From NCBI GenBank assembly GCA_040218145.1, contig JAVJQK010000050.1:124001-188000 (forward strand): a DNA stretch of 64,000 nt. The letters run 5' to 3'. Under the pieces are notes generated by a model, which made no database searches, was not told the DNA's origin, and worked only from the letters and a program-made list of their open reading frames with translations. A program made the position numbers and the translations under genes. The stretch comes from Sandaracinaceae bacterium (GTDB lineage: Bacteria > Myxococcota_A > Polyangia > Polyangiales > Sandaracinaceae). Positions within the stretch are counted from its first letter, which is position 1; every line of letters begins with the position of its first letter. Of the stretch, positions 33,180 through 56,586 are shown piece by piece.

Positions 33180-33275
33180 CCTCATCGAGCAGGCCGTTGA
33201 AGCACCGAGCCCGAAGGCACTCGGGTCGTCCCGCCCGAGAGACGAGGAGCGAGGTTCTTCGACGGGCTGCTGGGC

Positions 33276-52623: not shown

Positions 52624-52938
52624 TCAGCGCAGCGCGCGTGCCTTCGCCCTGCGCCGCTCGGCCCGGCCCACGTCGCCCTTCTGCTCGGCGACCAGCGCGT
52701 GCGCGTCCAGCAGCTCGGCGAGCGCGGACTGCTGCCGCGGGTCGGCGAGCAGGCCGACGAGGCTGGGCGCGGCAAGGGTGTCGATCAGCGCGCCGTCGAG
52801 GCCGGTCAGAGCTCGGTAGGCCTCCTCGATGAGCCGCTCGAGGTCACCCTCGCCCGCGCCGCTGCTCGACTTCGTGATGGCCGCGGCCAGCTCCGTGATC
52901 TTCTGGAGCTGCCGCATCATGGAGTCGTCGACGAGCAC
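52624..52938 (-). CDS. DUF6483-like helical protein
   Basis: A 104-residue, mostly helical protein. The beginning LVDDSMMRQLQKITELAAAI and the later ELLDAHALVAEQKGDVGRAE follow the pattern of DUF6483 (MRQIEQ-x-A start, repeated leucine helices). I rate this as likely, not certain. GTG 52938 keeps the family's LVDDSMMRQ start; ATG 52920 is the alternative. It diverges from the sigma-54 activator gene (46 bp apart), so they share a promoter region. Confidence 0.62.
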   Translation of the reverse strand: MLVDDSMMRQLQKITELAAAITKSSSGAGEGDLERLIEEAYRALTGLDGALIDTLAAPSLVGLLADPRQQSALAELLDAHALVAEQKGDVGRAERRRAKARALR

Positions 52939-52971
52939 GAGAAGGGTGTACGGCGCGCGAGGCGACTTTGC

Positions 52972-52977
52972 TACGGT
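52972..52977 (+). promoter_or_regulatory. TAnnnT -10 element of the sigma-54 activator gene
   Basis: TACGGT ends 7 nt before ATG 52985 with no ribosome binding site between. Confidence 0.5.
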
Positions 52978-52984
52978 GCCGCCG

Positions 52985-54439
<1,455 letters not shown>

Positions 54440-54442
<3 letters not shown>

Positions 54443-54543
54443 AGCGCATCTCAAAACCCCTCCCGTCGCCCGGCCGGCGGGACGGGCCCCATCCGCGGCC
54501 GGTCGCTCCTCGAAAATACTCCGGCATTTCCTCGTCGCGCCCA
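54440..54543. repeat. Imperfect palindromic intergenic repeat, copy A (upstream of cpaB)
   Basis: Starts with TAGAGCGCATCTCAAAACCCC (54440-54460), shared with copy B at 55451 except one base. A block of 22 bases at 54522-54543 (CGGCATTTCCTCGTCGCGCC and the next two) matches 55473-55494 with two differences. Its middle (GACGGGCCCC-type, 54481-54490) matches copy B in the reverse orientation. The TAG at its edge is the stop codon of the upstream activator gene. Confidence 0.7.
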
Positions 54544-54590
54544 CCGAGGATTGACGGGCCGCCCCTGCCCTGAAACCCTTCGAGCGCGGC

Positions 54591-55394
54591 ATGAACCGGA
54601 CCCTCCTCATCGCCTCGGGCGCGCTGATCTTCGCCGGGATGGCCGTCTTCTACGTCTACGCGCAGACGTACATCCAGGACGAGACCGGCGGGACGCGCGT
54701 GCGCGTGGTCTCGGCCGCGGTGGACATCCCGTTCGGCGAGCCGATCCAGCCGGGCTGGCTCACCGTCAAAGAGATCCCGCAGAGCTACGTGGAGGACCGG
54801 CACCTCGGCCAGTCGGAGCTGCGGCAGCTGATCGGGCAGCGGCTCGCGCAGTCGGTGCGCTACGGCGAGGCCATCCTGCGGACGGATCTCTCGACCTTCA
54901 GCGATCAGCAGCGCACGCTCAGCGGTGAGATCCCGCAGGGCAAGCGCGCGATCACGCTGGACGTCGTCCGTGAGTCGTCGCACGGCGGGCTGCTCCGGCC
55001 GGGGGATCGCGTCGACGCGATCGTGACCGTGGGCGACCGCCGCGTGCCCAACTCGGGCCGCTCGGTCGTGGTCGCGCAGAACCTGCTGGTGCTCTCCGTG
55101 GGTCGCCTGGTCACGTGGACGTACGACGACGAGGACGAGTCGCAGACGCGGCGCCAGAGCGGCCGCTCGCCCGTCAGCCTCGAGGTGGATCTCGAGGACG
55201 CGCAGCGCCTCACGCTCGCCGGGCGCGAGGGCGCGCTGTGCCTCGTGCTCCGGCACGGAAACGACGTCAGCATGCTCGACCGGCCGCCCGAGGTGCGCGA
55301 GGAGAACCTCTTCGACCGCGCGCGACGCGCGGACTGGGCGCGCCGCTTCGCCCTCGTGGAGCGACCCGAGCCGCCGACCGAAGCGACGCAGTGA
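54591..55394 (+). CDS. cpaB: Flp pilus assembly protein CpaB
   Basis: A 267-residue protein. One membrane helix (residues about 4-24, TLLIASGALIFAGMAVFYVY) is followed by an SAF domain (about 37-105: VDIPFGEPIQPGWLTVKEIP, YGEAILRTDLS) and the CpaB/RcpC C-terminal region (EIPQGKRAITLDVVRESSHG, LLRPGDRVDAIVTVG, VVAQNLLVLSVG). CpaB/RcpC belongs to the Flp/Tad pilus assembly system, in the periplasm. Other tad genes are not beside it here, an isolated copy. Both flanks carry the palindromic repeat. Confidence 0.88.
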   Translation: MNRTLLIASGALIFAGMAVFYVYAQTYIQDETGGTRVRVVSAAVDIPFGEPIQPGWLTVKEIPQSYVEDRHLGQSELRQLIGQRLAQSVRYGEAILRTDLSTFSDQQRTLSGEIPQGKRAITLDVVRESSHGGLLRPGDRVDAIVTVGDRRVPNSGRSVVVAQNLLVLSVGRLVTWTYDDEDESQTRRQSGRSPVSLEVDLEDAQRLTLAGREGALCLVLRHGNDVSMLDRPPEVREENLFDRARRADWARRFALVERPEPPTEATQ

Positions 55395-55431
55395 GGGCCT
55401 CCCGTTCGCTGCCCGGCGGCGAAAGCGACCC

Positions 55432-55437
55432 TATACT
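55432..55437 (+). promoter_or_regulatory. TAnnnT -10 element of the methyltransferase leader
   Basis: TATACT ends 8 nt before ATG 55446 of a 32-codon open frame. This is probably the promoter of the leader and the methyltransferase gene at 55546. Confidence 0.5.
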
Positions 55438-55445
55438 CTCGGTCG

Positions 55446-55544
55446 ATGGCTAGAGCGCATCTCGAAACCCCTCGGCATCTCCTCGTCGCGTCCAACCACG
55501 GCTGGGGCCCGTCGCGCTCGGCCATGCTCGGTCCGGGGTATTGA
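55446..55544 (+). CDS. Possible leader peptide (uORF) of the methyltransferase gene
   Basis: A 32-residue open frame, starting MARAHLETPRHLL and ending GPSRSAMLGPGY, whose TGA ends one base before the methyltransferase ATG. It has a TATACT element 8 nt before its ATG, the spacing used by other genes in this window. Nearly all of it lies in the palindromic repeat (copy B), so it may be spurious. Coupling of its stop to the next start is geometrically possible. Confidence 0.4.
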   Translation: MARAHLETPRHLLVASNHGWGPSRSAMLGPGY

Positions 55545-55556
55545 GATGCGCTCGAG
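55451..55556. repeat. Imperfect palindromic intergenic repeat, copy B (downstream of cpaB)
   Basis: Bounded by an inverted repeat: GAGCGCATCTC at 55453-55463 and GAGATGCGCTC at 55543-55553, extended outwards to about 20 bp with a few mismatches. The methyltransferase ATG (55546) lies inside the right arm. Read in reverse it aligns with the first 60 bp of copy A, including the GACGGGCCCC core. Confidence 0.7.
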
Positions 55557-56586
55557 CGTCGCGACCGGAGTCACCCAGATCGCTTACGGGGCGCAGCAGC
55601 TCGGCATGCTCGTCCCCGCCACCCTCGCGCAGCGCCTCCTCCGCGCGGTGGGGCGGCGCGAGACCCCGGTGCCCACCAAGCGCGAGCTGGAGATCCTGCA
55701 TGGGCGGCTGCGGGCGCTCTTCGAGACGGACCTCGCCAACGTCGAGGCGGGCATGTATCCGCGCAAGCTCCTCTTCAGCGTGCCCGCCTGGGACTACGCC
55801 AAGCAGCTCCCCCAGCTCTTCGCGGACATGCCGCGCGCGTGGCGCCGCAGGGCCAAGGAGGCGTGGCGGGACGTGCCCGACGAGGCCGACCCGCGCAGCT
55901 ACCCGCCGTACTTCCGGCGCACGTTCCACTGGCAGACCGACGGGTACCTGAGCCGGCGCTCGGCCAAGCTCTACGACGTCGGCGTGGAGTTCCTCTTCGC
56001 GGGCACCGCGGGCGTGATGCGGCGGCAGATCATCCCGCCGATCACCCGGTTCTTGAACCGCTCGGGCGGCGCGAAGGGCAAGCGGCTGCTGGACGTCGCG
56101 TGCGGCACCGGGCGCGTGCTCTCGCAGGTCCACGAGGCCCACCCGGACCTGAAGCTCTACGGGACCGATCTCTCGCCCTTCTACGTGCGCGAGGCGCGCG
56201 AGGTGCTCGCCCACGTCCCCGACGTCTCGCTCGCGGCGGAGAACGCGGAGGCGCTGCCCTACGCCGATGATCTCTTCGACGTGGTCACCAGCGTCTACCT
56301 CTTCCACGAGCTGCCCAAGAACGCGCGCCGTCGGGTCTTCGCCGAGATGCTGCGCGTCTTGAAGCCGGGTGGGCTGCTGGTCATCGAGGACTCGGCGCAG
56401 CTGGCCGAGTCGGCGGAGCTGGCGTTCTTCCTCGAGCGCTTCCCCGAGGACTTCCACGAGCCCTTCTATCGCGACTACCTGAAGGACGACCTCGCCGCCG
56501 CCCTCGAGGAGAGCGGCTTCGAGGTCGAGGCCGTCGATTCGGTCTTCGTCGCGAAGGTCGTCACGGCGCGCGCGCCGGCGGCCTGA
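55546..56586 (+). CDS. Class I SAM-dependent methyltransferase with N-terminal extension
   Basis: A 346-residue protein. A helical N-terminal region of about 170 residues precedes a methyltransferase domain: RLLDVACGTGRVLSQVHE (motif I), LYGTDLSPFYVREA, NAEALPYADDLFDVVTSVY and RVLKPGGLLVIEDSA. The N-terminal segment contains YPRKLLFSVPAWDYAKQL, seen in some lipid- or quinone-related methyltransferases. The substrate is unknown. Its ATG lies in the right arm of the palindromic repeat, with no clear Shine-Dalgarno, one base after the stop of the small upstream frame. Confidence 0.85.
   Translation: MRSSVATGVTQIAYGAQQLGMLVPATLAQRLLRAVGRRETPVPTKRELEILHGRLRALFETDLANVEAGMYPRKLLFSVPAWDYAKQLPQLFADMPRAWRRRAKEAWRDVPDEADPRSYPPYFRRTFHWQTDGYLSRRSAKLYDVGVEFLFAGTAGVMRRQIIPPITRFLNRSGGAKGKRLLDVACGTGRVLSQVHEAHPDLKLYGTDLSPFYVREAREVLAHVPDVSLAAENAEALPYADDLFDVVTSVYLFHELPKNARRRVFAEMLRVLKPGGLLVIEDSAQLAESAELAFFLERFPEDFHEPFYRDYLKDDLAAALEESGFEVEAVDSVFVAKVVTARAPAA

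Follow-up and report, generated by a model that had tools for sequence, protein, structure and literature searches.

The 64,000-nt stretch analysed here (the window; contig C50, positions 124001-188000) belongs to a Sandaracinaceae genome (G000) of 11.06 Mb in 148 contigs. It contains an open reading frame of a sigma-54 activator, followed by cpaB and by a class I methyltransferase gene, and two short repeat copies, A and B, lie on either side of cpaB (Table 1). The initial annotation had placed such repeats at 54440-54543 and 55451-55556, and the blocks are indeed present there.

Table 1. Repeat elements and gene features of the window discussed in the text.
Feature	Position	Strand	Remarks
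Third element (F2)	33188..33271	-	Internal deletion, both ends retained
TAG stop of the sigma-54 activator ORF	54440..54442	+	Formed by the element edge; ORF 52829-54442; Sigma54_activat, PF00158
Copy A (F1)	54440..54543	+	Left arm, apical hairpin and beginning of the right arm; right half absent
cpaB/rcpC	54591..55394	+	Between A and B, outside the element; PF16976, E 5.6e-23
Copy B (F1)	55450..55557	+	Both ends kept; 61 bp lost from within the left arm, CTC microhomologies at the junction
First possible ATG of the methyltransferase	55546..55548	+	In the right arm of copy B; kept in the same-species genome G006

Copies A and B share two blocks of more than 20 bp, as had been recognised: 54440-54462 matches 55451-55473 (D1, 23 nt, 96%) and 54522-54543 matches 55473-55494 (D2, 22 nt, 91%). 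Both blocks are direct repeats on the plus strand, and the consensus of their subfamily (F1, see below) aligns in plus orientation to both copies, which contradicts the earlier view that A and B are oppositely oriented; they share one orientation, at a distance of 1011 bp. A reverse-strand match between them (30 nt, 80%) does exist because the element is self-complementary, and is to be expected for any pair of palindrome copies. Copy A corresponds to positions 2-105 of the 167 positions of the F1 consensus with 99% identity, and terminates about 20 bases past the hairpin tip. Copy B corresponds to positions 66-167 of the full-length consensus plus the left 24 nt; it starts with CTAG at 55450-55453 and finishes with GAGATGCGCT followed by CGAG, and at its deletion junction ACCCCTC is joined to CGGCAT, CTC being the microhomology. 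Its inverted ends, previously estimated at about 20 bp, extend over 23 nt and are 87% complementary. By these alignments, A and B go back to a single longer element, from which they differ by separate deletions.

When copies A and B were used to search their own genome, other full and partial copies were recovered with E values down to 1e-44 and 3e-28, respectively, a similarity far beyond chance. Besides A and B, 13 copies of F1 were found, most of them at the full length of about 165 bp; F1 runs from CTAGAGCGCATCTC to GAGATGCGCTCTAG and is self-complementary almost throughout. Weaker matches (75-80% identity) to the middle of copy A uncovered two more abundant subfamilies, F2 (TAGCAGTCCGTTGAAG...CTTCAACGGCCTGCTA), with 47 matches to its ends genome-wide, and F3a/b (CTAGCAG...CTGCTAG), with at least 40 copies of F3. 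The apical hairpin core is common to F1, F2 and F3, and the outer arms differ yet remain base-paired. GAGCGCATCTC, put forward earlier as the boundary of the element, is peculiar to F1, and the more general boundary is CTAG. A genome-wide search, as the initial annotation had advised, gave 104 matches in the own genome to a core pattern with three mismatches allowed, and none to the reversed-pattern control; the element is therefore far from restricted to the two loci beside cpaB or devoid of conserved structure. With more than 100 copies and strong covariation of its pairs, it is a short palindromic dispersed element of the REP or MITE type, as had been proposed.

Within the family, the core was counted 104 times in the own genome, 63 times in G006, a metagenome-assembled genome (MAG) of the same species, and 6 times in G005, which belongs to another genus, and was not found in seven other family members. 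Among 84,980 species represented by one genome each, the exact core occurred only in the Sandaracinaceae MAG MED-G138 and in one Polyangia MAG. The flanks of the MED-G138 copies are mostly 97-99% identical to those in G000, and we take this MAG to be G006. No match to F2 was obtained on plasmids, and none to the exact core in viral contigs. At least 24 contigs start inside an element, which indicates that the assembly breaks at the hairpins. The F1, F2 and F3a/b elements form a lineage-restricted, palindromic, MITE-like superfamily that is previously undescribed as far as our literature search reached, a search for CTAG-flanked bacterial palindromes having found none. A hybrid element with F1-type arms and an F3-type core was also observed in the Polyangia MAG 3_bin.16 (L075, 6884-7047), which suggests either that the subfamilies exchange modules or that the hybrid represents an ancestral form.

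Each of F1, F2 and F3 folds as one long hairpin (z-scores -8.6, -8.3 and -5.6), the inverted ends spanning nearly the whole element of about 165 bp, which carries no gene. In the alignment of 13 F1 copies, 97.2% of the cells pair, and changes on both sides are seen in 18 of the 56 pairs; shuffling gave 3.4 such pairs, and sliding the register gave 1-3. Two divergent copies, L029 and L027, contribute 16 of the 24 compensatory cells, and the cells are therefore not independent events. These data clearly show that the two arms of F1 change together. Such covariation could arise from a need for the fold, or from arm-to-arm correction by template switching.

The tetranucleotide CTAG is rare in the window (5 observed, about 66 expected), and one of its occurrences is the left end of copy B. 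In all the subfamilies, elements are flanked by CTAG more often than by any other tetranucleotide, on the left as well as on the right. Empty sites, which the initial annotation had suggested looking for in relatives, were found between G000 and G006. Two of the comparisons are clean: GGAC-CTAG-CTTG in G000 corresponds to GGAC-CTAG-(F2)-CTAG-CTTG in G006 (L100 vs L105), and GCGGT-CTAG-TCTC in G000 corresponds to CTAG-(F3b)-CTAG in G006 (L138 vs L086 and L082, the latter two joined over a contig break). In three reverse cases, with elements of F3, F3 and F2, respectively, the site is filled in G000 and empty in G006, where it reads CTAG with an adjoining indel (L216/L233), CTAA (L198/L235) or CTAG with 7 extra bases (L177/L234). 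Three further comparisons are messy: L084/L107; L078/L106, with CCAG...CTCG flanks and an empty site CTCG; and L048/L236, where the copy is bounded by a perfect 4-bp direct repeat, CCAA/CCAA, but the empty site has diverged. One more candidate, L139/L079, was dropped, as the right flank is missing in G006, and in G000 CTAG is followed by a different repeat. As to target-site duplications, CTAG stands on both sides of the element and singly in the empty site, whereas most flanks other than CTAG do not form direct repeats, and small scars are present at several empty sites. These results establish CTAG as the insertion target; since CTAG is palindromic, a duplication cannot be told from cut sites, and the data fall short of proving that 4 bp of the target are duplicated.

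The insertions that are young and specific to one strain are those of F2 and F3. By contrast, the F1 copies that were tested in G006 (L005, L013, L016, L027 and copy B) all have both flanks there at element distance; they are common to both strains, and F1 is hence older. Copy B, including its internal deletion, occupies the same position in G006 in a base-by-base alignment, and the flanks of the F2 copy in the window are also equally far apart in that genome. Two F2 copies (L149 and L151) end at GCTGAAGC, the hairpin tip, and the F1 copy L021 ends near the tip, which suggests cleavage of the hairpin tip followed by loss of one arm.

Taken together, the data are best explained by a non-autonomous, long-palindromic (foldback, MITE-like) transposable element that inserts at CTAG, an explanation that we consider probable as a whole, including the view that A and B are old, worn and inactive F1 copies and that cpaB lies between two independent insertions. 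The full element of about 165 bp, a single long hairpin without a gene, would be moved by an enzyme supplied in trans. Insertion at CTAG would leave a young copy between two CTAGs, as seen for young F2 and F3 elements; by analogy, A and B, which are bounded by GTAG (A) and by CTAG...CGAG (B), may have entered in the same way. Internal and end deletions, such as those at the CTC microhomologies in B and at the hairpin tip in two F2 copies, would follow. The element edges happen to give one neighbour its stop codon and the other a possible start. One feature counts against a MITE: different arms around a common core are unusual, as the ends of MITEs are normally the conserved part.

Long-palindromic MITE-like repeats of 100-170 bp, without a gene and with a single hairpin, are known in bacteria as ERIC, YPAL1, RUP and NEMIS/Correia. 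The F elements resemble them in these respects as well as in being mostly intergenic and present in tens to hundreds of copies; compared by description rather than by sequence, they differ in their CTAG flanks, in having several arm types per core and in being confined to one lineage. MITEs of the IS5 type use a YTAR/CTAG target. The F elements have the CTAG target in common with them, whereas no IS5-like parent or common inverted ends were found. The palindromic elements of Rickettsia likewise have no dedicated known transposase and can touch coding sequence (PMC3733652), but they are tagged by CGTC, which the ends of the F elements lack, and the F elements have been seen at gene edges. REPs are hairpins of 21-65 nt with a 5' GT[AG]G foot (PMC6006769). 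Like REP/RAYT and TIRtron/TIRYT systems (PMC3733652, PMC6006769), the F elements are palindromes defined by structure, with a fixed foot tetranucleotide and with RAYT genes in the genome; unlike REPs, they are several times longer, carry CTAG at each end rather than GTAG at a single end, and flank no RAYT.

Other repeats were encountered in the course of the analysis. Family G (L141 324-517, L145 254-438, L110 1743-1879) is a BIME-like mosaic of 37-86-nt hairpins, each bounded by CTAG, and often adjoins F3b elements, with CTAG in common. Family H (L147 199-366, L146 145-318) is a palindrome of about 165 bp, TGCAGAGATCC...GGATCTCGCA, with CTAG-like bounds and many copies in both strains. Another repeat, starting with CTAGGACTACTTGGTCACAT (L139 340-477, L071 1-123, L131 1743-1865), occurs at many sites in both strains beside F2 and F3. 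A low-complexity tandem of GCGGTCGCGGACTCGGAT (L180 1930-2310) lies directly beside an IS200-like transposase gene, between two CAACCTAGCGTCCCCATG.

The initial annotation had regarded cpaB as a cassette carried between A and B, and their spacing and common orientation would suit such a cassette or a local duplication around the gene. However, copy A is closest to an unlinked copy at C51:67029 (98.1%) and matches B at only 82% over the shared columns, and the best full-length match of B (90%) is unlinked as well. Being nearer to unlinked copies than to each other, A and B exclude a local duplication; copy A has moreover lost its right end, B lies beside cpaB at the same place in the other strain, and a cpaB-flanked unit at another site was not noticed in searches that addressed other points, so that we give a duplication or a cassette practically no credence. 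A conserved structured RNA, for instance an intergenic regulator or a terminator, would account for the strong covariation of the pairs and for the excess of G-T (14) over A-C (6) where only one side has changed. Yet the strand bias of these changes is not significant (p 0.115), no Rfam match was obtained in the window at gathering thresholds, template-switching correction between the arms could maintain the pairing equally, and the element has more than 100 copies and shows presence/absence differences between strains of one species; we therefore regard it as very improbable.

Two further readings are versions of the transposable element favoured above that name its mobiliser. According to one, a DDE insertion sequence that duplicates a 4-bp CTAG (YTAR-like) target gave rise to the elements as classical MITEs, and this parent has been lost or lies in an assembly gap. 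The two clean empty sites with a single CTAG, the copy with the CCAA direct repeat and the strain specificity of the insertions argue for it, but the ends are not conserved between subfamilies, CTAG does not separate duplication from cut sites, and no parent was found. In 857 kb examined for an autonomous parent, the sole CTAG-bounded inverted pair more than 500 bp apart consisted of two F3 copies; the inspected 21-nt matches to F2 ends were all elements except one in unrelated sequence. Hence, the matching transposase sought since the initial annotation was not found with F ends in either set. An IS1182-type transposase was rejected, as PF13751 (DDE_Tnp_1_6), the one DDE family searched, is absent, and so was a composite transposon on the 9.3-kb contig C93, where the large ORFs between two inverted F2 copies included no obvious transposase by eye. 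We rate the DDE version as a serious possibility, somewhat short of an even chance. According to the other version, the elements are REP-like and are moved by a Y1 (HUH) transposase (RAYT/TIRYT or IS200-like TnpA) that reads the hairpin together with a tetranucleotide at its foot; target and cleavage site of the element would then be the left and the right CTAG, respectively, no duplication would be needed, and the arms could vary if paired. This agrees with the varying but paired arms and with CTAG at both feet of the unrelated palindrome families G and H, and the own genome encodes three RAYT-like proteins and has one good IS200-like Y1 transposase gene. One RAYT gene is bounded by CTAGs and has inverted ends of the GGGGACGGTGTT type, resembling TIRtrons (GGGGWSAS; PMC3733652), but CTAG ends are lacking at a second RAYT locus. 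No match to F1-F3 was found near the RAYT genes of this species, the only F element near RAYT loci being a weak 65% match in another genus; G005 has its 6 core copies without a RAYT match, and three genomes with RAYT matches have no cores. REPs of 21-65 nt with GT[AG]G feet (PMC6006769) also differ from elements of 165 nt with CTAG. RAYT was thus rejected as the mobiliser for want of any association with F elements, and we consider the Y1 version as a whole unlikely. A wider form of it, in which nothing but the apical core and the CTAG feet is constant, the arms are free as long as they pair, and one CTAG-specific enzyme reading a folded single strand serves F1-F3, G and H as its clients, is similarly unlikely. 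Such a structure-reading HUH enzyme is attractive, but loss of a DDE parent would be the simpler explanation.

A separate observation concerns an orthologous CTAG-bounded site in the two strains (L183 on G000 C3, 1404-2672; L184 on G006 C4, 1450-2564), where the RAYT-like proteins are only 64% identical and the inner inverted ends read TTTACTTG and GGTTGTTAAGTTCCGG, respectively, inside a common GGGGACGGTGTT. It looks like a swap of RAYT cassettes or a hypervariable locus.

For the genes around cpaB, the proposal that insertion had touched their ends is supported. The activator frame does end in a TAG at the edge of copy A, and the earliest ATG at which the methyltransferase could begin, at 55546, lies in the right arm of copy B, inside GAGATGCGCTC; as read from the sequence, it is a possible start, and the next in-frame ATG, codon 21, is an alternative candidate. 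An open frame runs through 36 of 65 elements, compared with 89.5% of random positions in the window, which fits elements that lie mainly between genes. The neighbourhood of cpaB is thus an ordinary one that carries two independent insertions. For the Sandaracinaceae, the analysis adds a recently active superfamily of palindromic repeats with strain-level insertion polymorphism and subfamilies of graded age; the elements explain assembly breaks in this species, and their record of covariation makes it testable whether mobilisation is based on structure or on sequence.
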